A DNA stretch of 64,000 nucleotides from Knoellia locipacati. Lineage in GTDB: Bacteria; Actinomycetota; Actinomycetes; Actinomycetales; Dermatophilaceae. Below the pieces are notes generated by a model. That model was not told the origin of the DNA. It worked only from the letters and a program-made list of their open reading frames with translations, and searched no databases. This document shows positions 31,201 to 61,581 of this stretch, piece by piece. Each line of letters opens with the position of its first letter. Within the stretch, counting starts at the first letter, position 1. The translations under genes and the position numbers were made by a program. The stretch is from contig NZ_BKBA01000004.1 in NCBI RefSeq assembly GCF_007992835.1, positions 186,001-250,000 on the forward strand, in the 5' to 3' direction.

Positions 31201-31359
31201 CGTACTGGTCTCGAACAGAGCCGGAGCGGCGCTCGGCTTCAGGCGGCCGGGGTCGATCCTGTAGGAGATGCCGGTCTGTCGAGACTGTCCCGTAAACACG
31301 TCGACCACCGAATCGACTGCGTCCGTCTGGTACTTCTGAATCTTGAATTGGAGTTGCAT
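28279..31359 (-). CDS. res: Type III restriction endonuclease subunit Res
   Basis: 1026 residues. N-terminal SF2 helicase: motif I METGTGKT (about 104-111), motif II VIIDEPQ (about 229-234) and motif III YSATHK. RQEIGRGLRL is motif VI. The C-terminus has a PD-(D/E)xK nuclease: NPDWAIAF (about 952) followed by VAETKGS (about 972). This is the full Res architecture: ATP-driven translocation and cleavage 25-27 bp from the recognition site, requiring Mod. It begins 5 bp after the mod stop. GC and codon use are visibly lower than in flanking genes, consistent with horizontal transfer. Confidence 0.93.
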   Translation of the reverse strand: MQLQFKIQKYQTDAVDSVVDVFTGQSRQTGISYRIDPGRLKPSAAPALFETSTTPDSGLRNAEIELSATQLLENLHEVQKSRNLPLAPMILDSKAAPGAPNLDIEMETGTGKTYVYIKTIMELNKRYGWSKFIIVVPSVAIREGVKKSFDVTAEHFQQTYGTKPRSFIYNSTQLHELERFSSDAGVQVMVINIQAFNSTGKENRRIYDVLDDFQSRRPIDVISANRPIVIIDEPQKIGAPKSLEALSRFNALMVLRYSATHKVEHTKIHRLDALDAYNQRLVKKIAVRGITVKGLAGSTAYLYLDAIEVKKGQPPTARVELEVQTKGGPIKRQLKRVTKGTRLHDLANGIEAYKGLVVNDVSAIDDTITLSSGDVVVAGQLADRDVTEETKRRIQIREVIRAHIDKERELFSQDIKVLSLFFIDEVAKYRDYDREDTLGDYARLFEEEYAALVDEVLGELDLDGATAAYKQYLTRDTARGVHQGYFSIDRKSKRLVDGDVHKTGDEKGQSKDVAAYDLILKNKERLLSFEEPVRFLFSHSALREGWDNPNVFVMGMLKKSDNTISRRQEIGRGLRLAVDQHGERMDNPVTVHDINELTVVTDESYTDFVAGLQKEIAASLAARPRKASVKFFTGKTIHTADGESIVEEALAQALYKYLVKNDYINDDDTVSDAYIEAKKNGTLAQPTSDVLKPVIDFVWPLVDALYVDLPVPSDARKPKKIPLNEANFKKKEFQELWNRINHKAVYQVEFDSAELIGKCVASLDTHLNVAAMQYVIQAGRQRESLDADDLASGAGFDLSKTSTQTETVSAGSQVQYDLLGEITEKTQLTRRTAAAILGRINPNTFAKFRLNAEQFITEAARLINEQKATVIVEHLAYDALEDSFDTAIFTENQSAQNFAKAGEKLKKHVYDYVVTDSKLERDFVTELDTSTEVEVYAKLPRGFFIPTPVGNYNPDWAIAFTGGSVKHVYFVAETKGSLSTLQLKGVEDAKIECARKFFAEVNKKFEGQVKYDVADSYSKLMELVTA

Positions 31360-31364
31360 CTTCG

Positions 31365-33251: not shown

Positions 33252-33259
33252 GGTGATCC

Positions 33260-33961
33260 TCAGTTCGTGTTGCCCGGGGACGGGCTGTCGATCGGGCTCG
33301 TGAGGTCCACGAGCATTGCTTGCTTGGTTTTTAAGGTTCGACGCAGATCGAACCTGCGATTGAGTTGCGGTTCGTTCCGGAGCTTCCGCTCCAGAACAGC
33401 GATCTCGCGCTCCAATGACCGAACGGTCGTGAGCCTGGCGATGACCTCCGACACGTTTTCGCCAGGGCGCGACGCGACTGGCATCAGCGGCTGTATCAGA
33501 GCTGTGTACATGCTCGTCAGGTCGATGGCGGTCGGAAGCGGCACTCGGCGATGGGGTGTCTGCTGCCATTCGGTGCTGAAGTAGGGGCCCACTTTTGGGG
33601 CACCGGCGCCGAGTTGCTTGTGAGCGGCCACCATGCGGATGCTTCCGATTGCGCCCTCCCCGCGGCTGATCTCGAAAATGATCGGTGTTCGTACAGCCTT
33701 GTCGATCGCAGCCAGCACACTCTCCGCGACGTCCTCGTCCTTGGCGACGATCTCGAAGATCTGGATCTCGACAACCTCACCGCTGCCCGGAAGGTTAATC
33801 GTCGACTCGGCAAGCTTGTAAGCCCAGGTGATCCGTCGTACGTCGGACACGAAGCGATCCTTGACGGTTGCGCCGAGAGAGGCGCGTTCGTAGAACTTGG
33901 TCTTCGGCACAATCCGTCCGAACTCCGCCGCACTCGGCCACCGGTAGAGCGGCACCGTCAT
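33260..33961 (-). CDS. DUF4391-family protein of the restriction operon
   Basis: 233 residues. The ATG (33961) overlaps the stop of the upstream helicase as ATGA. The sequence (VPLYRWPSAAEFGRIVPKTKFYERA; MVAAHKQL; GPYFSTEWQQ) matches my recollection of DUF4391, which is repeatedly found next to type III mod genes and large helicases. The C-terminal third is a predicted coiled coil (VRSLEREIAVLERKLRNEPQ). It has no known activity and may be an adaptor joining the helicase to Mod/Res. Confidence 0.78.
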   Translation of the reverse strand: MTVPLYRWPSAAEFGRIVPKTKFYERASLGATVKDRFVSDVRRITWAYKLAESTINLPGSGEVVEIQIFEIVAKDEDVAESVLAAIDKAVRTPIIFEISRGEGAIGSIRMVAAHKQLGAGAPKVGPYFSTEWQQTPHRRVPLPTAIDLTSMYTALIQPLMPVASRPGENVSEVIARLTTVRSLEREIAVLERKLRNEPQLNRRFDLRRTLKTKQAMLVDLTSPIDSPSPGNTN

Positions 33962-36900: not shown

Positions 36901-37227
36901 ACACTCTTTCGCGATCGCGCGTTGGGTGAGTTTGTTGCGAAGGCGAATCTCGAACTCGGAGCCATAGAGACTCGATTCGCCGCTGCCGCCCCTCGGAATG
37001 AAGAACTCCCGACGTTCCTTGCGAAGCCTGTCAGTGACCTTCTCAGTGACGAACGCGGGCGAGGTGAAGATGAACTCCAACTCACTCACTTGCTCGAGCT
37101 CCTTGCGGAGCGCCTCGAAGGCGAAGATTGAGAACGTCGAGGCAGCGATCCGAACCTTCGATCCTGGAGTGATCTCATCCTTGAGGTCATCCCCCAGCAG
37201 CGAGTTGAGGTTGTCGATGATCTTCAC
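33958..37227 (-). CDS. SNF2-like SF2 helicase with N-terminal PLD-like region
   Basis: 1089 residues from GTG 37227, sharing GTGA with the upstream stop. The first 190 residues resemble a phospholipase-D/nuclease-type fold (AASTFSIFAFEALRKEL; FAVVDDKTAYM), but a clear HKD motif is not visible, so nuclease activity is doubtful. Helicase motifs: ILADSVGLGKT (about 270-280), VIDESHNFRN (about 361-370), LMLSATPVNNR, LIGTDVISEGQNLQ and QRFGRVDRIGS (about 820). An acidic stretch (LDVDDDDDANLE) splits the two RecA lobes. Similar PLD-helicases occur in DISARM-like and other helicase-methylase defence loci. Function in this operon is unknown. Confidence 0.88.
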   Translation of the reverse strand: MKIIDNLNSLLGDDLKDEITPGSKVRIAASTFSIFAFEALRKELEQVSELEFIFTSPAFVTEKVTDRLRKERREFFIPRGGSGESSLYGSEFEIRLRNKLTQRAIAKECADWVRRKVRFQSNSTGNPMQQFAVVDDKTAYMPLQGFTTADLGYERGNAVSNMVHRVDDAPMTSQYVALFDQIWNNPAQLDDVTDAVVEHIAGVYAENSPARIYFLILYNLFAKFLDDINEDVLPNDRTGYQETQVWQSLYNFQRDAAIGIINKLETYNGCILADSVGLGKTFTALAVIKYYELRNKSVLVLAPKKLSENWTNYNANLTTNIFATDRFNYDVLAHTDLSRSRGESMGLRLDRINWGNYDLVVIDESHNFRNADYAEEKESRYQRLMRRVIREGVKTKVLMLSATPVNNRFNDLKNQLQLAYEGESESLTQHLNLSTTVENVFRDAQRVFNNWSKLPPETRTTDQILKMLDFDFFELLDAVTIARSRKHIQAFYDTTEIGAFPERLPPVSIRAPLTDLAGVATFNEIFEQIQALTLAVYTPLAYVFPSRIGKYEDLYNVKGGTARSNLGQLGREQGLKKLMTVNLLKRLESSVEAFRLTVGRIEGAVDETLGRLETRGGAMTELDVDFANLDLDVDDDDDANLEALTFGEKIKIDLEDIDVESWRSDLWNDRETLRELLEEMEKVTPDRDAKLQRLKRLIEDKAANPINLGNHKALIFTAFADTAHYLFRELAPSFSKVGLESAIITGGAHAAKTTLGPGHDFQQVLTLFSPRSKQRHLTMPKETAELDVLIGTDVISEGQNLQDCDYLVNYDIHWNPVRIIQRFGRVDRIGSTNAQIQLVNFWPDISLDEYINLKERVENRMVIADLAAVGDDNILDPASADAAYRKEQLRKLQDDIIELEDVRTGVSITDLGLNDFRMDLLGYINEHGALDTLPKGLHAVVPADRTNGLKPGVIFALRNVDADENIDRGNRLHPHYLIYLDEAGNVIADHTEVKQLLDVIRAGCRPYDEPVGAVTRVFNASTGEGAEMGRYSELLTAAIRSMIEVTDERDLDSLFTDGPTTALSQAIGGLEDFELIAFLAVVDPEQGSP

Positions 37228-41225: not shown

Positions 41226-42131
41226 CTACTTCCCCCGCCACTCCTTGTGGAAGGCGACGAAGGCACGGTCCGTCCCGGGACCCCAGTTGCTGTCCTGCTC
41301 GACCTTGAGGATCTTCTGGAACTTCTTGACGATGACCCTCACGGCGGCCCGCGTCTCGGGTCCGTAGCTGCCGTCGCCGGAGACGTCGACGATCGCCTGC
41401 ACGATCTTGATCTGGGTCCTGTTCTGCGGCAGCGACGCCGCGGCGACCGCCCTGAACGCCTGGGCCCGCAGCTCGGTGTCGGCACCCCAGTGCGAGTCCA
41501 GCGCTGCCTCGAGAAGGAACTGCATCGCGTGGACGTCCTCGCGCGACCAGCGCAGCGGATGCGCCGTCGTCGGGGTCGTGGTGGTCGTGGTCGTCGTCGG
41601 GTGGGTGACCGGCGGGGACGGCGCGTAGTTCGGGCGGAAGAAACCACGCACGAACTTGCCCGTCCGCTTCTTCCGATAGACGCCGTCGCCGTTGTTCTGC
41701 GAGCCGACGTTGCTCGGGGACGTGTTGCCCTCGATGGTGGTGATGACGAGGTCCTTGGACCCGAGGGCGCCCTGGCGGGTGACCTTCTCGACGATGCCGA
41801 TGTGCGAGCTCTTGGTCTTGCCCATGACGACCCAGTCGCCGACCTTGGGAGTCGTGTGCCACTGCCCCGCCGCCCTCGCGTCGGCCTCGATCTGCGGGAC
41901 GTAGTAGGGCCCCCAGCCGAAGTCGTCGGTCATGTCCTTGCCCCCGACCTTCGCACCCGACTGGAGGAAGGCCGCACACCACGAGGCGCCGTTCCACGAC
42001 GGCTTGGTGTTGAGCCAGTACTTCACCTGGTTGCTGCCGGGCGGTGACTCCGTCGTCCCGATCTGGGACGCGGCCCAGAAGAGGAACTCCTGCTTCGTGA
42101 GATGCCTGAGGATCTCTGCGGTGGCGGCCAT
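41226..42131 (-). CDS. CHAP-domain peptidoglycan amidase with C-terminal peptidoglycan-binding-like repeats
   Basis: 301 residues from ATG 42131 (overlaps the upstream TGA as TGATG; GAGGAGGAG precedes). The N-terminal CHAP/NlpC-type domain has the catalytic Cys in SWCAAFLQ and His in SHIGIVEKV. A Pro/Thr tether (PTTTTTTTTPTTAHP) follows, then a region with GDGSYGPETRAAVRVIVKKFQ, typical of PG_binding_1 or phage-endolysin-like repeats. No classical signal peptide is visible, so export may depend on another route or on lysis. It may be endolysin-like, but no phage genes surround it. Confidence 0.85.
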   Translation of the reverse strand: MAATAEILRHLTKQEFLFWAASQIGTTESPPGSNQVKYWLNTKPSWNGASWCAAFLQSGAKVGGKDMTDDFGWGPYYVPQIEADARAAGQWHTTPKVGDWVVMGKTKSSHIGIVEKVTRQGALGSKDLVITTIEGNTSPSNVGSQNNGDGVYRKKRTGKFVRGFFRPNYAPSPPVTHPTTTTTTTTPTTAHPLRWSREDVHAMQFLLEAALDSHWGADTELRAQAFRAVAAASLPQNRTQIKIVQAIVDVSGDGSYGPETRAAVRVIVKKFQKILKVEQDSNWGPGTDRAFVAFHKEWRGK

Positions 42132-47359: not shown

Positions 47360-47448
47360 GCCTCCCGAGCGTAGTCAGGCCCACCCCACCCCGTAGGCCG
47401 GCCCGCGCACTGGGTGGGACCCGCGCCCTCGTCCCGCTGCGGACGCAC

Positions 47449-47477
47449 CGCAGCGCTTTCGCAGCGCATCCGCAGCG
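47449..47477 (+). promoter_or_regulatory. Three heptamers at 11-bp period (SARP-type site)
   Basis: CGCAGCG occurs at 47449, 47460 and 47471, exactly 11 bp apart with 4-bp spacers. This is the architecture of SARP/BTAD binding sites. It ends 51 bp before the first ATG of the secreted-protein operon. A matching element lies upstream of the operon at 61479. Confidence 0.75.
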
Positions 47478-47528
47478 CACCCCGTGACGCTCGGCCCACC
47501 GACGCACGTTCTCCACCTGAGGAGCACC

Positions 47529-47897
47529 ATGAAGCGCACCATCACCGCCACTGCCATCACCGGACTCGCCCTCGCGGCAGCGACCGCGACGGCAGGTCCG
47601 GCGCAGGCCAACGACAAGACCCTGCAGATCTGGAACGCCGCCGGCACGAAGGTCGTCGCCAAGGCCTGGTACGACGACTCCACCGACAACCTCTGCGTCC
47701 GCAGCTACGTCCAGGGGCAGATGGCCACGGTCCGCATCGGCCCCTCTGGCGGCAGCACCTTCGCCAGCGCCAACGACGCCGGCTTCGGCAAGTCGACGAA
47801 CTGCACCGGCAACATGTCGATCCCCGAGGACCGCTACTACTGGATGACGCTGAGCTATCCGGGGCGGCCGTCCAAGGACGCGAACTTCTACACGTGA
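47529..47897 (+). CDS. Small secreted protein, paralogue A
   Basis: 122 residues. ATG at 47529 follows GAGGAGCACC. The Sec signal peptide (MKRTITATAITGLALAAATA) ends near AGPAQA/ND. The mature domain of about 95 residues contains AKAWYDDSTDNLCVRSYV and NCTGNMSIPEDRYYWM, with two Cys likely forming one disulfide. The downstream gene repeats the CTGN(L/M)SIPEDR signature, so the two are tandem duplicates. A calyx-like or inhibitor-like beta fold is possible; function unknown. Confidence 0.85.
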   Translation: MKRTITATAITGLALAAATATAGPAQANDKTLQIWNAAGTKVVAKAWYDDSTDNLCVRSYVQGQMATVRIGPSGGSTFASANDAGFGKSTNCTGNMSIPEDRYYWMTLSYPGRPSKDANFYT

Positions 47898-47908
47898 TCG
47901 GGGGAGCC

Positions 47909-48289
47909 ATGCACCGCACCACACTCGCCGGCCTCGGCGCCGTCGCAGCCACGGTCGTCGCGGTCGGGATCGCCGCGCCGGCCCAGGCCGCGAGCAAGTC
48001 CGTCACCCTGACGAACCCCTCCGGAGGGGCCCACGCCGTCCTCCACTGGGACGACACCTACGACACCCTCTGCCTGACCCTGAAGTCGACGGCGGCGAGC
48101 GCCTATGCCGACGCCGACATGAGCCTCACCGACGGCACCCACTTCCACCACCTGCGGGTCACCCGGTCCAAGACGAGGGACTGCACCGGCAACCTCTCGA
48201 TCCCTGAGGACCGGGCGGCGCAGATGAGTGTCAACGGCGGGACCAACTCGTTCCACAGGACCTCGGGCTGGGTGGGCTTCTTCACCTGA
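47909..48289 (+). CDS. Small secreted protein, paralogue B
   Basis: 126 residues. ATG at 47909 follows GGGGAGCC, 11 bp after the upstream stop. The signal peptide ends at APAQA/AS. The mature part shows HWDDTYDTLCLTLKS and DCTGNLSIPEDR, aligning with paralogue A. Co-transcribed with it and therefore probably under the same 11-bp-period site. Confidence 0.85.
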   Translation: MHRTTLAGLGAVAATVVAVGIAAPAQAASKSVTLTNPSGGAHAVLHWDDTYDTLCLTLKSTAASAYADADMSLTDGTHFHHLRVTRSKTRDCTGNLSIPEDRAAQMSVNGGTNSFHRTSGWVGFFT

Positions 48290-48334
48290 GCGCCTCGGCC
48301 CTGCGGCGTCACACCGGCGCCGTAGGGTCGAGCC

Positions 48335-49291
48335 ATGCCCCTGCGCACCCTCGCGAACGTCCTCGACTCCGCGCTCGACCGCACCGTCGTGCCCGGCTTC
48401 TCCAAGATCGGGTATGCCGTCCGCCGTCGCCTCCCGACGTGGCCGGCCGACCCGGCGCCCGGCTCCCTCGCGGGCCGGCACGTCGTCGTGACGGGTGCGA
48501 CCTCCGGCCTCGGCACCGCGACGGCTCGCCAGCTGAGCGCCCTCGGCGCCCACGTGCACCTCGTCGTCCGCAACGCCGACAAGGCCGCCGACGTGGCGCG
48601 CGAGCTCCCCGGGCCGTCGACCACGTGGACCTGCGACCTCGGCGACCTCGACAGCGTGCGCGCCTGTGCCGCAGCGATGCTCGCCGACGCCCCACCGCTC
48701 GACGCCATCGTCCACAACGCCGGCGCCATGCCGGCCGAGCGCACCGAGTCGCCGCAGGGCCACGAGCTCTCGATGTCGATCCACGTCCTCGGCCCGGTCC
48801 TGCTCACCGACCTGCTCCTGCCCAAGCTCGAGGGGCACGAGGCCCGCGTCGTGCTCGTGACGTCCGGTGGCATGTACGCCCAGGCGCTCCCGGTCGACGA
48901 CCCGGACTACACGCGGGGCACCTACGCGCCGCCCACGGCATACGCACGGAGCAAGCGCACCCAGGTCGAGCTCCTCGACATCCTCACGGTCCGGTGGGCC
49001 CGGGCGGGCGTCGCGGTCTACGTCATGCACCCCGGCTGGGCCGCGACGCCCGGCGTCACCGAGTCGCTGCCGACGTTCGACAAGGTCATGGGTCCGGTCC
49101 TGCGGGACGCCGATCAGGGCAGCGACACGACGACCTGGCTCGTCGGCGCGCAGCCGCGACCGCGCGGTGGCGGCCTGTGGATGGACCGGCGCGAACGCCC
49201 CACCGCGTACTTCGGTCGCAACGCCGCCAGCTCGGACGAGCGCCGGCGCATGTGGCAGTGGGTCGCCGACGCGACCGGCCTCACCCCCTGA
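48335..49291 (+). CDS. SDR of the DHRS12/retinol-dehydrogenase-like type
   Basis: 318 residues. A membrane-associating N-terminal extension of about 45 residues precedes the Rossmann motif VVVTGATSGLGTATARQL. NAGAMP, the Ser in VTSGG and YARSKRTQVELL give the catalytic triad. The N-terminal length matches DHRS12-like short-chain dehydrogenases. Substrate unknown. AlkA follows after 4 bp. Confidence 0.88.
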   Translation: MPLRTLANVLDSALDRTVVPGFSKIGYAVRRRLPTWPADPAPGSLAGRHVVVTGATSGLGTATARQLSALGAHVHLVVRNADKAADVARELPGPSTTWTCDLGDLDSVRACAAAMLADAPPLDAIVHNAGAMPAERTESPQGHELSMSIHVLGPVLLTDLLLPKLEGHEARVVLVTSGGMYAQALPVDDPDYTRGTYAPPTAYARSKRTQVELLDILTVRWARAGVAVYVMHPGWAATPGVTESLPTFDKVMGPVLRDADQGSDTTTWLVGAQPRPRGGGLWMDRRERPTAYFGRNAASSDERRRMWQWVADATGLTP

Positions 49292-49295
49292 GCCG

Positions 49296-49943
49296 ATGGA
49301 CCACGCGCGCTGGGAGCAGCACGTGCACGAGGTCGCGACGCTCCACCCCCACCTCGCCGCCGAGCTCGACGAGCACGGTGTCCCCGAGCGCTGGTCGCGT
49401 CCACCGGGGTTCCCCAGCCTCGTGCTCCTCATCCTCGAGCAGCAGGTCTCGCTCGCCTCGGCGGCCGCGGCCTATGCCCGGGTGCGAGCCCGCGCCGGCG
49501 CCATGACCCCGACCGCGCTGCTCGCCACCACCCCGGAGCAGCTGCGCGAGGACGGCGTCTCGCGCCAGAAGGACCGCTACCTCCGGGCGCTCGCGACCGC
49601 GGTCGAGTCCGGCGAGCTCGACCTCGAAGCCCTGGCGACGCTCCCCGACGACGAGGTCGCCGCGCGGCTCACCGCCCTGCCCGGCATCGGGCGCTGGACC
49701 GCCGAGGCCTACCTCCTCGCGTGCCTCGACCGCCCCGACGTGTGGCCGATCGGGGACCGTGCCCTCCAGGTCGCCGTGGGCGAACGGCTCGGTCTCGCCG
49801 AGGTGCCGGTGGGTGCGGCGCTCGAGGAGCTCGGCGAGCAGTGGCGCCCGCACCGGTCGACCGCGGCGCGGCTGCTCTGGCACGGCTACCTCACCCGGCG
49901 CGGCCGACGCGAGACCGACGTCGACCTCCGGCCGGGCGACTGA
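49296..49943 (+). CDS. alkA: DNA-3-methyladenine glycosylase II (AlkA type)
   Basis: 215 residues. The helix-hairpin-helix LPGIGRWTAEAYLL and the catalytic Asp154 (PIGDRAL) form the HhH-GPD signature of AlkA-like glycosylases. EQQVSLASAAAAYARV is the first conserved helix. It removes alkylated purines in base-excision repair in the cytosol. The N-terminal DUF of E. coli AlkA is absent, which is usual for this shorter subgroup. It starts 4 bp after the SDR stop. Confidence 0.93.
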   Translation: MDHARWEQHVHEVATLHPHLAAELDEHGVPERWSRPPGFPSLVLLILEQQVSLASAAAAYARVRARAGAMTPTALLATTPEQLREDGVSRQKDRYLRALATAVESGELDLEALATLPDDEVAARLTALPGIGRWTAEAYLLACLDRPDVWPIGDRALQVAVGERLGLAEVPVGAALEELGEQWRPHRSTAARLLWHGYLTRRGRRETDVDLRPGD

Positions 49944-49947
49944 GCGC

Positions 49948-50403
49948 TCAGTCCTCGGCGACCGCCGCGAAGCGCGCCAGCAGGTGCGGCCACTCGCTGA
50001 ACGTGCTGCGCCGGGCGATGTTGTCCGGGTTCCACCCGTCGTGGGTGAGCGTCACGAGGGTGCCGTCGTCGGTCGGCTCGAAGTCGACGACGAGCTCGGT
50101 CGGGTGGTCACGCGGCAGCGAGAGGTGGAACGTCATCGCGAACCGCTCACCCGTCGTCCACTCGGTGACCTGCCCGATCGGGTAGTCCTCACCGTCGTGG
50201 TGCAGCACCACCTGGCCGCCCTCGACCTCCTCGACGTCGGCGCCCTCGTAGGTCGACGGGTCCGCGGTCAGCCTCGGGTCCCACCAGTCGCCCAGCCGCT
50301 CCGTGAACACCTCGAAGGCGTGCACCGGGTCTGCCTCCACCTGCTGCGTGCACACGATGGCACCGTCGCCGTCCAGCGCTGTGTCGTGGTCCCGGGGAAG
50401 CAC
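49948..50403 (-). CDS. SRPBCC/AHSA1-like protein
   Basis: 151 residues from GTG 50403 (GGAGG lies very close upstream, so the exact start is uncertain). The AHSA1 pattern is clear: VHAFEVFTERLGDWWDPRLT, GQVTEWTTGERFAMTFHL, GTLVTLTHDGW. A soluble cavity protein; ligand unknown. Convergent with AlkA, 4 bp between stops. Confidence 0.85.
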   Translation of the reverse strand: MLPRDHDTALDGDGAIVCTQQVEADPVHAFEVFTERLGDWWDPRLTADPSTYEGADVEEVEGGQVVLHHDGEDYPIGQVTEWTTGERFAMTFHLSLPRDHPTELVVDFEPTDDGTLVTLTHDGWNPDNIARRSTFSEWPHLLARFAAVAED

Positions 50404-50600
50404 GCCTCCAGTGTGCTCCGAAATGCTGCGCTCGCGCGAGATGAGAGCTAAGAAAACGCGTGAAGGACGTCGGTCGCACCGGTGTGTCGGTGGCCGATCG
50501 TAGGCTGTCGCGAAGGGGTATGCCGTGCGCCGCTCTGTGTGTGAGTTCGCCTGTCGCTCAGTCGAATTCGTCGTTCACAGGTCCGCTCGAACGCTTGACT

Positions 50601-50618
50601 CTCGAACAGGAGTTCGAG
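50601..50618. promoter_or_regulatory. LexA (SOS) box
   Basis: CTCGAACAGGAGTTCGAG contains the exact mycobacterial/Gram-positive SOS consensus TCGAAC-N4-GTTCGA; the full palindrome extends to 50599-50620 with 9-bp arms. It lies 10 bp upstream of the HNH start, so LexA binding would block transcription. Confidence 0.92.
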
Positions 50619-50628
50619 AGAATGGGGT

Positions 50629-52263
50629 ATGGACATCGAGGTCGCAGACGGGCAGGGCGCTCCCCATGCTGCCGTCGTCGCGCTCGAGTCCGCCCGGTCG
50701 GCCCTCACTGCGGTCCGGGAGGCGCTGCCGCAGCTCAGTGGCGCCGAGCTGGCCGAGGTCCTGCGTCTCGCCGACGCGGTGAAGGCGCAGGCCTGCGCGA
50801 CGCAGGTTCTCGTGACGACCGAGGCCGCCCATCGAGGGGAGTTCACCTCCGCCCGACGAGGCGCCGGGTCCGCCCACGAGTGGGTCCTCGAGCACGCACC
50901 GTCGCTGCGACAGGGCGGCGCCGGGCAGCTCGCGTCGTTCGCCGTCGACGTCGCCCACTGCACGCCGGGCGGTCAGTGGTCGACCGAGGGTCCTCGTGCG
51001 GGAGCGTTCGCCGATCCGCAGCGGGCCGAGGGTGTCGTGTGGGCGCGGGTCGTCACGGGCGAGGTCGGGGTGCCGCTGGCGCGAACGATGCTCACCGAGA
51101 TCGCGCGTCTCGCCGACCGGCTGCGGCCCGAGGCGATCCCGACCGTGGCCGCGGCGATGCTCGACCACGGTGTGCTGTGCGGCGTCCGCGACGTCAAGCG
51201 GGTGCGCACGCGGCTCCTGGCCCAGCACGGTCTCGACGGCGAGCTCGACGATGACCAGCGACGACTGCGGACCGCCGCCCACCTGTCCCAGCCCGAAGTG
51301 TCCGAGGGTGACATCACCGAGTACCGCATGGGCCTCACCCCCGAGCAGTCCGCTGCCCTCGAGGCCGCGCTGGGTCCGCTCGCCAGTCCGGTGCCCGACC
51401 CGGCGACCGGAGCCTTCGACCCGCGCTCCCACGGTCAGCGCCGCGCCGAAGCCCTCATGTCGATCGTCACCGGGCACGCGGCGCGCGACGGTGAGGTCGC
51501 CGGCCCGGCGGCGGCGCCGACGGCTCTCCACGTGACGATGGGCCTGACCGACCTCGTGCGGTTCCTCGACCTGTCCGGCACTTCGGTCCCGGGGTGCCCG
51601 TCGACGACCGCGTTCGGGACGGTGGTCGGGTCCACCGCGGCCGGCACCATCCTCAACGCGGGTGACGTCCGGCGGCTGGCCTGCGACGCCGACATCATCC
51701 CGGTCGTCCTCGGCAGCGCCGGGGAGGTGCTCGACGTGGGTCGCGCGGCGCGGCTGTTCACCCGTGGCCAGCGCCGGGCCCTGACCCACCGCGACGGTGG
51801 CTGCACGTGGCCCGGGTGCGACGCACCGGCATCGTGGGGCCGCGCCCACCACGTCGTGCACTGGGTCGACGGCGGGCGGTCGGACCTCGACAACGCAGCC
51901 CTGCTCTGCCAGCGACATCACACCCACGTCCACGACCAGCGCCTCGTGGCCACGGTCCATCCGCCCGACGAGTTCGGCCGTTCCGTCACGTGGGACGGCA
52001 CTCCGGGGAGCTACGACATCGCCCTGTCCCGCCGGCTCGCCGCCCGGCGGCGCGACGGTGAGCGCCGACGAGCCGACCGGCGGCGCGACGCGGAGCATCG
52101 ACGGCGCGCCCTCGACGTGGGTGGACCCGACCCGTGGGCCGGCGCCTGGGCGCGCTCGTGGGCCGACGACGAGGACCTCGTGGCCGAGCTCGAGGCGATC
52201 CATGACGCCGACGTGCGCGGTCCGGGGAGCCTCCACGAGATGCCGGAGCCCGCGGCGGCCTGA
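50629..52263 (+). CDS. DUF222/HNH endonuclease (13E12-type)
   Basis: 544 residues. DUF222 covers about residues 20-330 (AELAEVLRLADAVKAQACATQ). The C-terminal HNH is GGCTWPGCDAPASWGRAHHV with a downstream NAALLCQRHH. Members are abundant in actinobacteria (13E12 repeat family) and probably act on damaged or branched DNA. Regulation by SOS is shown by the LexA box at 50601-50618. The start ATG at 50629 is chosen for frame. Confidence 0.92.
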   Translation: MDIEVADGQGAPHAAVVALESARSALTAVREALPQLSGAELAEVLRLADAVKAQACATQVLVTTEAAHRGEFTSARRGAGSAHEWVLEHAPSLRQGGAGQLASFAVDVAHCTPGGQWSTEGPRAGAFADPQRAEGVVWARVVTGEVGVPLARTMLTEIARLADRLRPEAIPTVAAAMLDHGVLCGVRDVKRVRTRLLAQHGLDGELDDDQRRLRTAAHLSQPEVSEGDITEYRMGLTPEQSAALEAALGPLASPVPDPATGAFDPRSHGQRRAEALMSIVTGHAARDGEVAGPAAAPTALHVTMGLTDLVRFLDLSGTSVPGCPSTTAFGTVVGSTAAGTILNAGDVRRLACDADIIPVVLGSAGEVLDVGRAARLFTRGQRRALTHRDGGCTWPGCDAPASWGRAHHVVHWVDGGRSDLDNAALLCQRHHTHVHDQRLVATVHPPDEFGRSVTWDGTPGSYDIALSRRLAARRRDGERRRADRRRDAEHRRRALDVGGPDPWAGAWARSWADDEDLVAELEAIHDADVRGPGSLHEMPEPAAA

Positions 52264-52309
52264 CGGGGGGAGTGTCGCCCGGAACGACGCACCCCGTCCT
52301 GACCTGCAA

Positions 52310-55079
<2,770 letters not shown>

Positions 55080-55108
55080 GCACCAACCCCCGCCCGGTGC
55101 GGGTTATC

Positions 55109-55156
55109 GAAGGTCCTGTCAGGCGCGCGAACTATGGCGCGTCTGGCAGGACCTTC
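55109..55156 (+). terminator. Hairpin after katG
   Basis: Arms 55109-55127 and 55138-55156 (19 bp, two positions as G-U) around a 10-nt loop, followed by CTGTTTC. A terminator for the furA-katG transcript. Confidence 0.85.
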
Positions 55157-55266
55157 CTGTTTCAACCCCAGAATGGCCGAGAACCTACGGCCGGCGAAGA
55201 ACAAGGGAATCGCATCGGCTACCTTTCTGCCTGCGCCTGTCCGCAATGTCAGCTAGGGGAATTCAC

Positions 55267-56358
55267 ATGCTTCGCTCACTCTTCACTGCGACGGTCGTCG
55301 TCCTCGCTCTGGCCTCCTGTGGGGGCGGCGAGAAAACATCGGAAAGCGACACTAGCGACCCCAAGGTGCCAGCTGCGCAGACCACGCCGCCAAAAGAGCT
55401 TGGTGCGCTCGTGAAGTCAGGATTCGGTCAGAGAGACGAATACGTGTGGGTGACGGCCATAGTTCACAACAACTCGACCTACGTCGGACAGACGGTCACT
55501 GTGAACTTCAATGTGCTTGACGACAAGGGCTCTGTGCTGAAGTCCGAAGCCCAGGTCGAGTCCTTCTCCCAGCCGGACGCTGACCACATCATCGGAACTC
55601 AGGTCAGCCTTGAGCCAGGGATGAAGGCCGCCAAGGTCGAGGCGACATTGGACGTGGAGGCGAACGGAACTTTCAGTGACAAGCCGTTCCCTGCCCTCCC
55701 CGTTTCGAAGGTGGTCATCAAGAAGTCCGAGTACGGCGGTCAGGAGGCGAGTTTCGAGGTCTCGAATCCCACATCACAGCCGCTGAAAGACCTCCGCCTT
55801 GCCATTGCATGCGCTGACGCTGCCGGGAACCTCGTCGGTGGAGGGTCCGAGTTCCCGGAGCTGGTGCCAGCAAACGGAAAGGTCCGAGTGGATTCGAACA
55901 TCATCGTTTCGGGTAACCCAGCATCGTGCTCGGTCTACACGGGCTCGCTCGGAGAGTCAGAGCCGTCGGCGGGCGCTTCCCCTTCGCCAACAGCAGCCGC
56001 GGTGTCCGGATCGGCTGAGTCTGCGTTCAAAATCTGGGTAGACCAGTTCTCGAAGAAGGACTGGAAGGCTCAGTACGTGACGCTCGTCAGTGCGCAGCAG
56101 AAGATCATCTCCGAAAAGGAGTACGTGGCCTGCCGAAACAGTGAGCAGGTGCCGGATCTGAAGTGGTCGAAACTCCTGAGCGTGACCGATGTTGGAACCA
56201 TCACGATCCCGGGTACGAGCGCGAAACTGCCTGCGACGAAGGTGTCCGCCCAAGTGACTACGTCCGGCATGCAGGTCCCCGTTGACGCCCGAATGTTGAG
56301 CGAGGATGGACTGTGGAAGTGGTCTATGACGCAGGAGAACGTCGACAATTGCGCGTGA
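55267..56358 (+). CDS. Lipoprotein with FxLYD-like domain
   Basis: 363 residues. ATG at 55267 follows AGGGGAATTC. Lipobox LASC near residue 18, then a Lys/Thr/Ser tether. VWVTAIVHNNSTYVGQTVTV resembles the FxLYD beta-sandwich; a second beta-rich domain and a C-terminal domain (AFKIWVDQFSKKDWKAQYVT) follow. GC is lower and codon use less biased than in neighbours, suggesting transfer. Surface-exposed; function unknown. Confidence 0.82.
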   Translation: MLRSLFTATVVVLALASCGGGEKTSESDTSDPKVPAAQTTPPKELGALVKSGFGQRDEYVWVTAIVHNNSTYVGQTVTVNFNVLDDKGSVLKSEAQVESFSQPDADHIIGTQVSLEPGMKAAKVEATLDVEANGTFSDKPFPALPVSKVVIKKSEYGGQEASFEVSNPTSQPLKDLRLAIACADAAGNLVGGGSEFPELVPANGKVRVDSNIIVSGNPASCSVYTGSLGESEPSAGASPSPTAAAVSGSAESAFKIWVDQFSKKDWKAQYVTLVSAQQKIISEKEYVACRNSEQVPDLKWSKLLSVTDVGTITIPGTSAKLPATKVSAQVTTSGMQVPVDARMLSEDGLWKWSMTQENVDNCA

Positions 56359-56499
56359 TTGCCAGCTGACGGCGTATTCAGGCGCCTTGGATCTGCGGTT
56401 CTTCTCCGTTTGCCGCTGCCCCCCGTTGCCAAACCCTTCCGCTCCTGGCCATTGTGGAGCCCGCCCTAGTCGGAGCAGACTGGTTCCGAGGTGAGCGCA

Positions 56500-56832
56500 A
56501 TGGCCGGCATCCTCGGGGTGGTCGTGATGGCGCTGCTCGGCGCCCTGCTCCCGGTCGTCGTGGCCCGCCGCGACCGCCACCCGCCCGAGCCCCTCGCCCC
56601 CGTCCTGCTCGGGCTCGAGCTGGCCCGGCTCGCCGACCACCTGCGTCAGGTCGAGGAGGGCAACCAGCCCAACAAGGCCGAGCGGCTGGCCGCCAGCACC
56701 CTGGCCTATGACCTGGCGCTGCGCGACTACTGCCGCAGCGTGGACCTGCCCGTCCCCGACGGGCTCGGGCTGTCGCGCAGCGAGCGGTTCGAGCTCGAGT
56801 CGGCGCTCCTCGTCCACGGCCACGACTGGTAG
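56500..56832 (+). CDS. Small membrane-anchored protein
   Basis: 110 residues from ATG 56500 (GAGGTGAG upstream; a GTG at 56491 would add three residues). One N-terminal helix (MAGILGVVVMALLGALLPVVVA) followed by an amphipathic, charged cytosolic part. No family recognised. Confidence 0.7.
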   Translation: MAGILGVVVMALLGALLPVVVARRDRHPPEPLAPVLLGLELARLADHLRQVEEGNQPNKAERLAASTLAYDLALRDYCRSVDLPVPDGLGLSRSERFELESALLVHGHDW

Positions 56833-56840
56833 CCCTGCCG

Positions 56841-56915
56841 CCACTGATTGCCCCATCGGGCCCCACCGCGGGCGGCGCACGTGGGCCGGAAGACGCGCGG
56901 TGGGGCAATAAGTGG
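56841..56915. repeat. Nested, mutually exclusive inverted repeats
   Basis: Outer: CCACTGATTGCCCCA (56841-56855) against TGGGGCAATAAGTGG (56901-56915), one mismatch. Inner: CCCCACCGCG (56861-56870) against CGCGGTGGGG (56896-56905), perfect. The right strand TGGGG is shared, so only one hairpin can form at a time. Located between a gene end and the topoisomerase IB start. Confidence 0.7.
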
Positions 56916-56941
56916 CGAGATAGGCTTCCTGACCTGCGACG

Positions 56942-57946
56942 ATGGCGCGCATGACCCGACTGCGCACCGTCTCCCCGCAGGACCGCGGCTGGACCCGGCG
57001 TCGCGCCGGCAAGGGCTTCACCTACCTCGACCGCGAGGGCAAGCGGCTGCCGCAGCCCGAGGTCGAGCGGATCCGCTCGCTCGCCATCCCGCCCGCGTGG
57101 GAGGACGTGTGGATCTGCTCCGTCGCCAACGGCCACATCCAGGCCGTCGGCACCGACGACGCGGGCCGGCGGCAGTACCTCTACCACCCCGACTGGCGGG
57201 TCAAGCGCGACGAGCTCAAGTTCCAGCGCATCCTCGAGGCCGCCGAGCAGCTCCCGGCCGCCCGCCGTCGCGTCACCCGTGACCTCCACCGCGACGGTAT
57301 GCCGTTGGAGCGCGCCGCCGCTGTCGCCGTGCGCCTGCTCGACCTCGGCTACTTCCGGATCGGCAACGACGTCTACACCGACGCCAACGGCTCGTTCGGC
57401 CTCACGACGCTCGAGCGCCAGCACGTCCGCAAGGTCGGCGAGGGACTCGTCTTCGCCTTCGACGGCAAGAGCGGTGTCTCGCAGAAGGTGACGATCCGCG
57501 ACGAGGACGTCGCCGCGGCGATCGGCGAGATGCGCAAGCGCCGCTCGACGTCCAAGCGGGTCCTCGCCTACCGCACGGACTCGGGTTGGCGCGACCTCGA
57601 GGCGCCCGACGTCAACGCCTACCTCCACGACATCTTCGACGCCGAGGTCACCGCCAAGGACTTCCGCACGTGGCACGCCACCGTCCACGCGGCGGTGGGC
57701 CTGGCCTCGTCGCCCGAGCCGGGCGACACGCAGGCCTCGCGCAAGCGCGCGGTCAAGGAGGCCGTCCAGCAGGTCTCGGACTACCTCGGCAACACCCCCA
57801 CCATCGCCAAGAACTCCTACGTCGACCCCCGGGTCATCGACCGCTACGACAACGGCGAGACGATCACCGTCCCGAAGGCCACCGGTCGCAACCCGATGCG
57901 CCGGCAGGAGGCGATCGAGAAGGAGGTCCGCACCCTCCTGAGCTGA
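56942..57946 (+). CDS. DNA topoisomerase IB
   Basis: 334 residues from ATG 56942. Bacterial/poxviral-type IB enzyme: N-terminal RGWTRRRAGKGFTYLDREGK, catalytic core RIGNDVYTDANGSFGLTTL, and nucleophile Tyr293 in AKNSYVDPRVIDRY. It relaxes both positive and negative supercoils by a 3'-phosphotyrosine intermediate without ATP. Confidence 0.93.
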   Translation: MARMTRLRTVSPQDRGWTRRRAGKGFTYLDREGKRLPQPEVERIRSLAIPPAWEDVWICSVANGHIQAVGTDDAGRRQYLYHPDWRVKRDELKFQRILEAAEQLPAARRRVTRDLHRDGMPLERAAAVAVRLLDLGYFRIGNDVYTDANGSFGLTTLERQHVRKVGEGLVFAFDGKSGVSQKVTIRDEDVAAAIGEMRKRRSTSKRVLAYRTDSGWRDLEAPDVNAYLHDIFDAEVTAKDFRTWHATVHAAVGLASSPEPGDTQASRKRAVKEAVQQVSDYLGNTPTIAKNSYVDPRVIDRYDNGETITVPKATGRNPMRRQEAIEKEVRTLLS

Positions 57947-58018
57947 GCACTTCGCGCGCCATGGCGGGGTTCTCCCGAACCCCTGCCGCGACCCGTGGCA
58001 CAGGAATAGCCTCCGAGG

Positions 58019-59812
58019 ATGACGAACCCCTCGGTTGACCGGCGCAGCGTCCTCAAGGGCGTGGCCGTCGCGAGTGCAGCGTTTGCACTTCCTCGAGCCT
58101 TCGACCCAGCGGCAGCAGCCGCACCCGCCTCCAAAGGCATCTTCGGCTACGGCGTCGCCAGCGGTGACCCGACCGGCGACTCCGTCATCATCTGGACCCG
58201 CGCGACCCCGCCCCAGCGGCACAAGGGCGACCCGGTCGCGACCCCCGGCAGCGGTCTCGGTGCCTCGATCCCGGTGCGGTGGCAGGTCGCCCGCGACCCC
58301 CGCTTCACCCGGGTCGTCGCCCACGGCCTGGTGCACACCAGCCCCGACCGCGACCACACCGTCAAGGTCGACGTGCAGGACCTCGACCCCTACACGCGCT
58401 ACTACTACCGCTTCCAGAGCCTCGGCGAGTTCTCCGAGACGGGCCGCACCCAGACCGCGGGTGACATCCCCGGCGAGACCCACGCCCTGCGTCTCGCGCT
58501 CGTGAGCTGCAGCAACTACACGGGCGGGTACTTCACGGCATACCGGGCCCTCGCGCAGCGAGACGACCTCGACTTCGTGCTCCACGTGGGTGACTACATC
58601 TACGAGTACGGCAACGGCGCCGACCGCTACGGCCCGGCCTCGCTCGCCGGCGTCCGCGACAGCCAGCCCCCGACCGAGACGATCGACCTCACGGGCTACC
58701 GCCTGCGGCACGCGCTGCACAAGGCCGACCCCGACCTGCAGGCGGCGCACCGGCAGCACGCGTGGATCACGATCTTCGACGACCACGAGGTCGCCAACAA
58801 CGCGTGGGCCGGGGGCGCCGGCAACCACCAGGCCAGCGAGGGCGACTACCTCGTGCGCCGGGCGCAGGCGATGCAGGCCTACCTCGAGTGGATGCCGTTC
58901 CGCCTGCCCGACCAGTCGCAGTCGACGCCGCACCGGGGCACCCGCTTCTTCCGGCGGTTCACCTTCGGCGACCTCGGGGACCTCTCGATCGTCGAGACCC
59001 GCCAGAACCGCAGCCTCCAGGTCACCGTGCCCGGCGTGCCGTTCGACGGGTTCGTCCCCGTCGGGCTCAACCCGGCCATCGACGGTGCCATCGCCCACCC
59101 CGGCCGGCACCTGCCCGAGCCCGAGCAGCTCACCTGGATCAAGGACGGACTCACGGGCAGGCGCCGCTGGCACCTCCTCGGCAACCAGGTCATGGTGACG
59201 CCCGTGCTCTACCCGGGTGCCGCGCTCGGCGCCCCCGGCCTGACGTTCGTCAACGCCGACCAGTGGGACGGCTACACCGCCGACCGCACCAACCTGCTCA
59301 CGCACGCCGCGGCCCAGCCGAGCGCCGACTCGGGTGACGTCGTCGTCCTCACCGGCGACATCCACGCGTCCTTCGTCGGCGACCTGCCGGTCGCCGCGTC
59401 GCCGGGCAACCCGACCTACACGTCCGCCGGCGTGGAGTTCGTCTGCCCGAGCGTGACGAGCGACGGCTTCGTCGAGGTCCTCGCCGGCACGAAGGACCTC
59501 CTGGGCAAGCCGCCGGAGGTCGTCGTCGGCGCCACCCGGCAGGCCATCGGCGCTGCACAGCAGCTCAACCCGTGGCTGCGCTACATCGACGGGGTGAGCC
59601 ACGGCTTCGTCGTCCTCGACGTCACACCCGAGCGGGTGCACGCCGACTACCACCACACGCCGGCCCCGACGAGTGCGCAGCCGGACCCGCGCACCGTCCC
59701 GACGGTCGTGCCGACCTACACCCGCAGCTTCCAGACCCTCGCCGGCAGCCGTCGCGCCACCGCGGCGAGCGGTCCGGTCGGTCCGCGCTCGGACCGTCCG
59801 CGGGGCGACTAG
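58019..59812 (+). CDS. phoD: Tat-exported alkaline phosphatase D (PhoD family)
   Basis: 597 residues. The Tat signal DRRSVLKGVAVASAAFALP (about 7-25) precedes the PhoD_N domain (FGYGVASGDPTGDSVIIWTR) and the phosphodiesterase/monoesterase core with metal ligands in LHVGDYIYEYG, FDDHEVANNAWAGG and LTGDIHASF. It is a Ca/Fe-dependent secreted phosphatase for phosphate scavenging. Its stop TAG overlaps the stop of the opposing gene inside one CTAG palindrome (59809-59812). Confidence 0.94.
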   Translation: MTNPSVDRRSVLKGVAVASAAFALPRAFDPAAAAAPASKGIFGYGVASGDPTGDSVIIWTRATPPQRHKGDPVATPGSGLGASIPVRWQVARDPRFTRVVAHGLVHTSPDRDHTVKVDVQDLDPYTRYYYRFQSLGEFSETGRTQTAGDIPGETHALRLALVSCSNYTGGYFTAYRALAQRDDLDFVLHVGDYIYEYGNGADRYGPASLAGVRDSQPPTETIDLTGYRLRHALHKADPDLQAAHRQHAWITIFDDHEVANNAWAGGAGNHQASEGDYLVRRAQAMQAYLEWMPFRLPDQSQSTPHRGTRFFRRFTFGDLGDLSIVETRQNRSLQVTVPGVPFDGFVPVGLNPAIDGAIAHPGRHLPEPEQLTWIKDGLTGRRRWHLLGNQVMVTPVLYPGAALGAPGLTFVNADQWDGYTADRTNLLTHAAAQPSADSGDVVVLTGDIHASFVGDLPVAASPGNPTYTSAGVEFVCPSVTSDGFVEVLAGTKDLLGKPPEVVVGATRQAIGAAQQLNPWLRYIDGVSHGFVVLDVTPERVHADYHHTPAPTSAQPDPRTVPTVVPTYTRSFQTLAGSRRATAASGPVGPRSDRPRGD

Positions 59813-60513
59813 GTCAGCGCGAGGACGAGGCTGGCCGCGGCCCAGCTCGCCGCCGCCAGCACGGCCGCGAAGGTCCCGACCCACAGCGGGGCCGGGATGC
59901 CGGTGAGCTGGCCGAGCACGGCCGCGTCACTCCCGCGGTCGCGTCGGCCGGCGCCGACGAGGGCGCCGAGGTGGCGCCAGGCGCCGACGAGCAGCACGAA
60001 GCCGGTGGCCACGACGGCGAGCACCTGGACCTCGTCGTTGCGCCACCACCACAGACCCCCCACCGCCGCGCCCGCGGCGAGCACGGTGAGCAGTGTCCCG
60101 GCCGAGCGCACGAACACGAGGACGACGACGAGGGTGAGGAGCAGACCGAAGAGGAGCGCGCCGGCATACCCACGTGTCGCTGCCCACAGCATGAGGAGGC
60201 CGACGAGCGCCGGCATCGGGTAGCCCGCCCAGGTCGTCGCGATCCGCCCGAAGCCGCGCGCCGGGCCGACGGTGACGGCGTGGCCGGACATGTCGCCGCG
60301 GACGACGAAGCCGGTGAACCGGCGCCCCGACAGGACACCGACGACCGCGTGGCCCAGCTCGTGGACGAGCGTGATGGCGATTCGCAGGCGCAGCCAGATC
60401 GTCGGGACGAGGACGACGACGAGCGCAGCGAGCCCCGCCGTCGCCACCGCCCCCGCCGGGAGTCCGGGGGTGGCGGCGGCGAGGCGGGTGCTGAGCTCGG
60501 TGCCGACGTCCAT
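59809..60513 (-). CDS. M50B-like membrane metalloprotease
   Basis: 234 residues, about six hydrophobic segments. The zinc motif HELGHAVVG lies at about 51-59 near an early helix; a downstream Asp expected for M50 was not clearly located, so catalytic competence is uncertain. Typical of actinobacterial 'M50 family metallopeptidase' proteins that act in or on membranes. Convergent with phoD with overlapping stops. Confidence 0.83.
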   Translation of the reverse strand: MDVGTELSTRLAAATPGLPAGAVATAGLAALVVVLVPTIWLRLRIAITLVHELGHAVVGVLSGRRFTGFVVRGDMSGHAVTVGPARGFGRIATTWAGYPMPALVGLLMLWAATRGYAGALLFGLLLTLVVVLVFVRSAGTLLTVLAAGAAVGGLWWWRNDEVQVLAVVATGFVLLVGAWRHLGALVGAGRRDRGSDAAVLGQLTGIPAPLWVGTFAAVLAAASWAAASLVLALT

Positions 60514-60590
60514 GGGCGCAGAACGTAGCCGGGAAGGCTGTGGGGCCCCCGACCGGCCCGTGCGCCGCGTGCGTCAGCGCGTCGTGCGCG

Positions 60591-61034
60591 TCAGCCGGTG
60601 TATGCCGTCACGCCCACCTTGAGGGCGATCTCGTGCTGGCCCGGGCCGAGGATCGTGCCCTCCACGCGCGCGCGGGTGCGGCGGTCCATCGTCGCCGTGG
60701 GGGCGGACGTGAAGTCGTTGCCGTAGCGACCGACCCGCACGCCGTGCTTGACCCCGTCGGTTGTCTGGATGCTCACCTTGGTCTCCCAGGCGGTGGCCGA
60801 GCCGAGGTGGACGTGCGCCCAGTTGCGCAGGTTGCCGTCGCACCAGCCCCAGTACTGGGTCAGCGTTCCGACGCGGTCGTCCCAGACGGTGTAGATGCCC
60901 GTGCTGTTGACGAAGTGCGGTGTGCCGCAACCGCTCGGGGAGGTGTTCGCGCTCGCGGGGCCGACGCCGGCCAGCGTCGTCGCGAGGACGGCGGTCGCGA
61001 CGGCTGCGACCCGGACTCTCTGCTTGGTCGTCAT
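60591..61034 (-). CDS. Small secreted protein, paralogue D
   Basis: 147 residues. ATG at 61034 follows AAGGAACCCACC. Signal MTTKQRVRVAAVATAVLATT, cleavage near GPASA/NT. The mature part has two Cys (GCGTP, GWCDG) and a beta-rich sequence (YTVWDDRVGTLTQYWGWC). Function unknown. Second gene of an operon with the gene at 61051-61479. Confidence 0.82.
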   Translation of the reverse strand: MTTKQRVRVAAVATAVLATTLAGVGPASANTSPSGCGTPHFVNSTGIYTVWDDRVGTLTQYWGWCDGNLRNWAHVHLGSATAWETKVSIQTTDGVKHGVRVGRYGNDFTSAPTATMDRRTRARVEGTILGPGQHEIALKVGVTAYTG

Positions 61035-61050
61035 GGTGGGTTCCTTCCGG

Positions 61051-61479
61051 TCAGGTGGCGGACGAGCCTGCGGGGGCGGTGATGAGCTGCCACGAGTCGT
61101 AGGCCGAGTCGTAGCGCCACTCGTCCCAGTGGACGGTGTTGCGGGTGCCGTTCGGCTTGTACTCGCGCAGGTCGTAGGCGCAGCGCTTCCACGTGCCGCT
61201 GCCCCCGGCGTTGCGGCACGAGCCGGACTCCTCGCCCGTGGCGGTGCGCCAGCGGACGACGGCGGAGTTGCCGTCGGCGTCCCCGTCGTAGACCCAGAAG
61301 TTGTCGAAGTGGCGGTCGTAGCAGCTGTAGACGGGGTTCCAGCCGCCGGTGTTCCACGTCGCGCAGATGAGCTGCGCGGCCGGGTCGGCCGGGGGTCTGG
61401 GTGCGGCATGGGCCGGCGTGGGGCCGACCAGGAGGAACCCGGTCGTCGCCACGGCAAGGGTCAGGATCTTCTTCTTCAC
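61051..61479 (-). CDS. Small secreted protein, paralogue C
   Basis: 142 residues from GTG 61479 (AGGGGAGAGTC upstream). Signal MKKKILTLAVATTGFLLVG, cleavage near AHA/AP. Cys in LICATW, YSCYD, GSCRN and KRCAY suggest two disulfides. FWVYDGDADGNSAVVRW parallels MVNGDGDGATASVQ of the protein at 16070. First gene of the operon headed by an 11-bp-period element. Confidence 0.83.
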   Translation of the reverse strand: MKKKILTLAVATTGFLLVGPTPAHAAPRPPADPAAQLICATWNTGGWNPVYSCYDRHFDNFWVYDGDADGNSAVVRWRTATGEESGSCRNAGGSGTWKRCAYDLREYKPNGTRNTVHWDEWRYDSAYDSWQLITAPAGSSAT

Positions 61480-61521
61480 GACTCTCCCCTTCGTTGGTGG
61501 TGGGGAGAGCGTGGCGAGGAC

Positions 61522-61550
61522 GGCTGCGCATCCACTGCGAAACCGCTGCG
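61522..61550 (-). promoter_or_regulatory. Three heptamers at 11-bp period (SARP-type site)
   Basis: On the minus strand CGCAGCG (from 61550), CGCAGTG (from 61539) and CGCAGCC (from 61528), exactly 11 bp apart, 42 bp before the GTG at 61479. Alignment with the element at 47449 also conserves TTTCGCAG and a downstream ACGCTC at identical spacing. Confidence 0.75.
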
Positions 61551-61581
61551 GACGAGCCGCAGCGATCCGGTGACGCCGGGC

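Follow-up and report, generated by a model that had tools for sequence, protein, structure and literature searches.

The window examined here, a 64-kb stretch of Knoellia locipacati DNA, contains two copies of a direct-repeat element, each preceding a pair of genes for small secreted proteins. Each copy consists of three heptamers of a CGCAGYG-like form, separated by spacers of 4 base pairs (bp) and repeated at an 11-bp period. Operator 1 lies on the forward strand at 47449-47477, with CGCAG at 47449, 47460 and 47471 within three CGCAGCG heptamers, and operator 2 lies on the reverse strand at 61522-61550, with CGCAG at 61550, 61539 and 61528. Operator 1 is followed by genes for a secreted protein of 122 amino acids (47529-47897, forward strand) and for its secreted paralog of 126 amino acids with 35% identity (47909-48289, forward strand), and operator 2 by genes for two small secreted orphan proteins of 142 (61051-61479, reverse strand) and 147 amino acids (60591-61034, reverse strand). 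The first of these proteins was modeled as a beta-sandwich (predicted local distance difference test score, pLDDT, 74.6), for which searches returned only weak Ig/FnIII-like matches, with best E values of 0.0097 (PDB) and 0.0072 (viral library).

The positions of the triple repeats on both strands had been reported in a first-pass annotation and were reproduced exactly, together with the distances from the third heptamer to the start codon (51 bp to the ATG at 47529 and 42 bp to the GTG at 61479) and the identical spacing in both operators of spacer TTTCGCAG and a downstream ACGCTC. This ACGCTC overlaps a -10-like hexamer located 8 bp past the third heptamer, GACGCT at 47486-47491 on the forward strand for operator 1 and CACGCT at 61508-61513 on the reverse strand (read 61513-61508) for operator 2. 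Two exact occurrences of CGCAG-N6-CGCAG-N6-CGCAG were counted in the window, compared to one triple-repeat match in total among 2000 dinucleotide-preserving shuffles of it and none with the -10 element. Allowing up to three mismatches gave no enrichment in the window (10 occurrences compared to 13.3 expected), so only the near-exact form was considered meaningful. An inverted copy of the heptamer, CGCTGCGG, is also present 14 bp before the first repeat, at 47435-47442 (forward strand) upstream of operator 1 and at 61557-61564 (reverse strand) upstream of operator 2, and is confined to these two operators among 23 aligned sites. On the basis of this common inverted copy, the two window promoters may be duplicates of each other.

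Dispersed sites and their secreted targets

The window's own genome (G000; 3.59 Mb in 19 contigs) holds nine sites, eight exact and one with a single mismatch (C3:814909) that passes the other tests. These are the two in the window (C4:233449 and C4:247524), C4:292029, C2:6140, C3:814909, C3:816662, C3:820145, C3:854223 and C3:877337. Overlapping matches at C4:292029 and 292040 were counted once, as were three overlapping pairs in the congener G003, which leaves ten sites there. Before counting, we dropped a one-mismatch match at C12:59117 with unlike spacers and no -10 match, loose-pattern places with unlike spacers in G001, G005, G013, G014, G015, G025, G033 and G057, the single one-mismatch site of G001, which lies upstream of a 206-amino-acid gene in a genome without the regulator subclade described below, and a four-copy tandem repeat in G173. 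Reversed patterns served as controls in G000 and gave 0 matches compared to 8 for the tighter pattern with up to three mismatches (one of the eight being the other strand of the C4:292029 place), 4 compared to 11 for the loose pattern with up to one mismatch, and 0 compared to 10 for a degenerate 27-mer with up to two mismatches. Across nine genomes of the genus, the 27-mer at this setting matched 10 times in G000 (nine places), 13 times in G003 (ten places), four times in G004 and once in G001, with no match in the five other congeneric genomes and none for the reversed control. A search for two repeats plus the -10 element recovered the nine known G000 sites with no additional member, along with 8 places in G003, 3 in G004, 2 in G007 and 1 in G008.

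The 19 sites of G000 and G003 have the conserved core CGCAGYG. In an alignment on the third CGCAG, the hexamer starting 10 bases after CGCAG has T as its sixth base in 19/19 sites and A as its second in 17/19. This xAnnnT hexamer, exactly 8 bp past the heptamer CGCAGYG, is present in 9/9 sites of G000, 8/10 of G003 and 3/4 of G004, while every other offset from 0 to 39 scored 0 or 1 in G000 and G003; the hexamers include CACGCT, CACCGT and GACGGT, among others. According to PMC10936776, SARP promoters have direct repeats 11 or 22 bp apart, the 3' one lying at a distance of 8 bp from the -10 element, and both the 11-bp heptamer repeats and the 8-bp distance were found here. The assignment of the repeats to a SARP-type operator architecture in the first-pass annotation was borne out, and its expectations of further copies in the genome, of a position before the starts of signal-peptide genes and of conservation in relatives were also realized.

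Seven of the nine G000 sites precede genes for secreted proteins, comprising wall hydrolases (CHAP, M23, phage-type lysozyme and probable M15-like proteins) and small orphans; of the other two, one precedes the regulator gene and one has no target. Besides the window operons, the targets are a peptidoglycan-binding, probable M15-like protein followed by an I36 and Phage_lysozyme2 protein (C2:6140), a CHAP protein (C3:814909), a second M15-like protein (C3:816662), a 160-amino-acid orphan secreted protein (C3:854223) and an M23 peptidase (C3:877337). The proposed regulon of small secreted proteins stands as a scattered regulon of secreted proteins, but its members are not only small, and cell-wall hydrolases form a large part of it. 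The nine places are dispersed and do not fall within a biosynthetic gene cluster, as judged from the site positions without a dedicated cluster search. In the M15-like proteins (L014:9717-10598 and L013:6221-7084), the motifs THxGGG..D and HIH are invariant in 5/5 homologs and resemble the zinc ligands of M15-type peptidases (HxxxGGG..D and HxH, carried on a VanY-like fold), from which the label "probable M15-like" is drawn.

Secretion was scored with a crude script, which required a start codon 25-200 bp past the 27-mer that had a ribosome-site match and opened a signal-peptide-like sequence; gene calls likewise came from a simple script rather than curated annotation. The test was passed by 7/9 sites of G000, 8/10 of G003, 12/12 of other genera and 0/4 of G004, compared to 284/3000 random places in the same stretches. 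Over G000, G003 and the other genera together, 27/31 sites passed (binomial 4.9e-24). A separate signal-peptide test on called genes was passed by 45/191 genes of the G000 stretches, targets included. At one failing G003 site (C1:3909760), a secreted nuclease-family protein with a twin-arginine translocation (Tat)-like signal starts 24 bp past the site, just outside the test range.

Outside the genus, 13 exact places were identified. One is a tandem repeat, and each of the remaining 12 is followed by a signal-peptide gene at a distance of 46-127 bp. The CHAP targets among them are homologous to the G000 CHAP protein (44-51% identity), and a G186 target is 51% identical to the window's 47529 protein; the target gene at G186 C1:1684031 was missed by the gene caller and found by tblastn. 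Other targets are an M23 protein with RTX repeats (G177), an NlpC/P60-like protein (G200) and an extensin-like C-terminal protein (G183), the last two below the profile cut-off, and a GH43 protein in G080, which is also the family behind a two-mismatch G003 site. I36-domain proteins recur as well, one of the three scanned, that of G080, carrying GH25. The I36 module was seen joined to three different C-terminal halves, Phage_lysozyme2 (L013:7149-8006), a HYDHVH part without a Pfam match (L062:3421-4275) and GH25 (L125:7545-8591), and from these combinations it may be an exchangeable wall-targeting or wall-protecting module.

The probable regulator and its distribution

An AfsR-type SARP gene lies amid three of the sites on contig C3 (about 816.7-820.0 kb; L014:10708-13884), with the site at C3:820145 in front of it, and encodes 1058 or 1083 amino acids depending on the start. 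The protein matched Trans_reg_C with 31.7 bits (cut-off 26.2) and BTAD with 101.9 bits (cut-off 22.1), the domains of a SARP, and NB-ARC with 44.7 bits (cut-off 23.5) and TPR_12 with 57.6 bits (cut-off 30.1), the additional domains of a large AfsR-type SARP. Against the AfsR equivalog (NCBIfam NF053617) it scored 284.6 bits, compared to a cut-off of 1430. Judged by these profile scores, it is an AfsR-type protein and not AfsR itself.

The closest solved chain is the AfsR SARP structure 8hvr (E value 8.3e-22), in which the base-contacting residues T88 and R92 align to A59 and G63 of the C3 regulator, a substitution that fits a different heptamer. The glycine at the R92-equivalent position is not unique, being shared by the BTAD protein of the window. 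The helix core RNR[VI]Q was present in 18/18 subclade members and 0/25 other SARP entries in an alignment of 45 entries, which contained duplicates of two members and of two others, and the RNRVQ core was unique among the entries aligned.

The family genomes were searched for the regulator with a seven-row profile (A2) built on its DNA-binding domain, with up to 15 candidates scored per genome. The subclade was identified in 18/186 family genomes at at least 215 bits, the next match scoring 132 bits. Exact triple sites with the -10 element were found in 13/186 family genomes at 29 places, compared to one reversed-control place; as the site pattern was exact, weaker sites elsewhere escape this count. 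These sites occurred in 11/18 genomes with the regulator and 2/168 without it (Fisher p 1.3e-11). With the seven profile-building genomes removed, five of which had been chosen via their sites, the counts were 4/11 and 2/168 (p 1.1e-4). The two site genomes without the regulator are G173, which has the tandem repeat, and G004. An order sample of 396 genomes, 34 of them in this family and with up to 7 candidates scored per genome, gave 0 sites (one reversed-control place) and 0 subclade members in the 362 genomes of other families.

Five genomes of genus g2 (G182, G183, G185, G186 and G189) carry a CHAP gene, a target, beside the regulator, which also adjoins a target gene in G177, G200, G080 and G081. 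In G189 the CHAP gene is preceded by a one-mismatch site. The G200 regulator is flanked by two one-mismatch sites, one before a nuclease-family gene and the other before an M15-like gene followed by a homolog of the 160-amino-acid protein. No adjoining target gene was found beside the regulator in G034 or G078, and the G188 regulator lies on a 3.7-kb contig. In G177, the regulator sits between two secreted RTX-repeat proteins (L121:3747-4682 and 8192-9214). The first has M23 at its end and a triple site in front of its gene; the second matches NlpC/P60 weakly, and its gene is preceded by a two-repeat site with a -10 element.

Taken together, the element is very probably the operator of the AfsR-type large SARP on C3, which would switch on a dispersed secretome; binding and activation are what we infer. 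Several observations weigh against this reading. Among the 18 regulator genomes, seven have no exact triple site, and in four of them, G181, G184, G187 and G190, neither a site (up to three mismatches with the -10 element) nor a CHAP gene was found in 13 kb around the regulator; G078 likewise showed no site in the 14 kb around its regulator. The co-occurrence p-values take no account of shared ancestry. The -10 match is missing at 2/10 G003 sites, and the pattern of two repeats plus -10 has a background, with 3 places in G007 and G008 and 4 reversed-control places in the nine genomes. In a scan of 57 relatives, the loose exact pattern without the -10 element matched 10 places outside G000, G003 and G004, compared to 24 for the reversed control, and since it is not enriched there it is unusable in those genomes by itself. 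The probable M15-like protein has no Pfam M15 match and no M15 match in PDB searches, and its model is poor (pLDDT 58).

Two sites also lack a secreted target. The first, C4:292029, has a counterpart in G003, marked by a downstream ATPase gene that is 94% identical, where a secreted I36-domain protein is encoded between the site and the ATPase gene. This protein had no match in the corresponding stretches of G000 or G004, and the C4:292029 site looks like a remnant. The second, G003 C1:110773, has neither a secreted target nor a frame. Here (L061:4774-4800) a perfect triple site with its -10 element is followed by no reading frame but by a terminator-like inverted repeat, so that the place is either a relic or a promoter from which a short non-coding RNA is transcribed.

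G004, of the same genus, has no subclade regulator, and none of its four sites has an intact target. The L069 site lies beside a dioxygenase gene, where G000 and G003 carry the CHAP, M15-like and regulator genes, and the L067 site has no secreted gene, whereas G003 has one there. The frame behind the L073 site has no signal peptide, and its match to the Exo_endo_phos profile is confined to the C-terminal half and scores below cut-off. The L068 site precedes a homolog of the 160-amino-acid protein in which the start-codon position reads ACG. The leftover sites suggest that the system was once present in G004 and that the regulator has since been lost, although G004 is a single assembly in which single-base changes could be errors.

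Alternative readings and physiological role

The first-pass annotation had nominated another regulator, the large BTAD protein of the window (placed at 17216; 17207-20755, forward strand; Trans_reg_C, BTAD and AAA_16), as the cognate activator. This protein is SARP-type, lies near a gene for a small secreted protein, and has a recognition helix containing VSGLRR, partly like that of the C3 regulator. The nearest operator, however, is about 27 kb away, no CGCAG triplet occurs upstream of the neighboring secreted gene, and the helix is without the RNRVQ core. G003 has ten sites, yet the best of its three SARP loci compared is only 31% identical to the 17207 product (a fourth, partial match was left out), and it is the C3 SARP that tracks the motif across the 186 genomes. 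We rejected the window protein as the regulator, a role we consider very unlikely for it; the C3 SARP is the likely activator instead. A response regulator of the OmpR/PhoB type, such as MtrA or PhoP, would also bind 11-bp direct repeats and can control wall hydrolases; OmpR-type domains share with SARPs a winged helix and the 11-bp period, and MtrA reportedly controls cell-wall and division genes in mycobacteria. MtrA/PhoP-type operators are built from GTNAC or GTTCACC-type repeats, which the core CGCAGYG does not resemble, and no response-regulator gene was seen beside the three sites that surround the SARP gene. From a regulator that is general and widely conserved one would not expect so patchy a co-occurrence with a single SARP subclade, an argument made without directly examining response-regulator co-occurrence, and we give this candidate little credence. 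Tandem CGCAG repeats do occur in some family genomes (G173), which would suit an element with no regulatory function that is mobile or structural, such as a family of repeats. The fixed -10 spacing, the downstream signal-peptide genes, the divergent spacers and the co-occurrence with one regulator argue against this, and leave it almost no plausibility.

The small secreted protein near the window BTAD gene (16070-16450, reverse strand; 126 amino acids, no confident Pfam family) is possibly a private target of the 17207 regulator. The window also encodes a CHAP-domain protein (41226-42131, reverse strand) that shares 30% identity over 162 residues with the G186 CHAP protein. Its C-terminal part matches a peptidoglycan-binding domain weakly, it shows no evident signal peptide, and its gene has no triple operator. 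A block of large genes in the same orientation (26408-37227, reverse strand; 619, 1026 and 1089 amino acids) has coding scores per residue below those of its neighbors and is possibly acquired DNA.

For the C3 SARP, a mechanism can be proposed by analogy with AfsR (PMC10936776). SARP monomers would bind the 11-bp repeats side by side on one face of the DNA, and the protomers would contact sigma region 4 and RNA polymerase next to the poor -10 element (xAnnnT) 8 bp downstream. The polymerase would in this way be held on a weak promoter with a suboptimal -10 and a poor -35, activating a dispersed secretome of CHAP, M23, I36-lysozyme, probable M15-like and small orphan secreted proteins, to which the relatives would add nuclease-family, GH25, NlpC/P60-like and GH43 proteins. 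The regulator gene is itself located behind one site.

M23, CHAP, NlpC/P60 and muramidase enzymes belong to the same classes that remodel a cell's own wall, and EmbR, a SARP relative with a solved structure, is said to act on wall genes; a SARP-driven regulon serving the cell's own growth, division or dormancy is a possibility we take seriously while thinking it doubtful. The system is present in only 18/186 family genomes and apparently lost in G004 and is therefore not essential, and in relatives the set also includes a GH25 muramidase, GH43 proteins and a secreted protein of a nuclease family. Considering the target content and the patchy distribution, we lean slightly toward the lysis or scavenging of other cells as its role, over own-wall remodeling. 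A more tentative proposal, which we hold as conceivable but short of an even chance, is that an AfsR-type regulator with a recognition helix of its own has been rewired: instead of antibiotics it would control a scattered, bacteriolytic secretome of wall hydrolases, nuclease-family proteins, muramidases and new small secreted families. The NB-ARC/TPR half of the regulator would sense signals within the cell, perhaps by way of Ser/Thr kinases detecting wall fragments, in an inducible kill-and-digest program gained and lost as a unit in some members of one actinobacterial family.

Relation to known systems

SARPs have been studied mainly as activators of antibiotic clusters. No report of a SARP regulon of secreted wall hydrolases appeared among the literature matches listed, in which subscription papers are thinly covered. 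The regulon described here appears to be real, with a regulator of a known kind doing an unusual job. The operator sequence, the promoter rule and the recognition-helix signature are clear enough for immediate testing, and orphan secreted proteins gain a shared regulatory identity, with the motif picking such proteins from unannotated genomes. G004 offers a natural experiment, as its regulator and targets seem to have undergone a joint decay. Should bacteriolysis prove to be the role, over-expressing one regulator in a laboratory strain could reveal a hidden set of lytic enzymes.

MtrA and other OmpR-type regulators resemble the present system in placing wall-hydrolase genes under one activator, in a winged helix of the same broad fold and in the 11-bp period. 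They differ in the operator letters and in being response regulators, in contrast to the SARP-NB-ARC-TPR protein here. Among SARP-LAL proteins of the PimR type, the main PimR operator likewise has three heptamers with 4-bp spacers at an 11-bp period, and full activity needs all three repeats (PMC5930380). PimR differs in its heptamer, CGGCAAG, in controlling one antifungal cluster gene, and in an operator without overlap of the -35 box (PMC5930380). AfsR of Streptomyces coelicolor, with its afs box, has the same domain order as the C3 regulator, SARP (winged helix and BTAD), NB-ARC-type and TPR (PMC10936776), and responds to phosphorylation and nucleotide (PMC10936776, PMC10972967). Its operator also has 11-bp direct repeats 8 bp from a poor -10 element, CACTGT at afsS (PMC10936776) compared to CACGCT, CACCGT and GACGGT here. 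The system in Knoellia differs from AfsR in an operator of CGCAGYG with three repeats rather than two, and in targets that are dispersed genes for secreted proteins.

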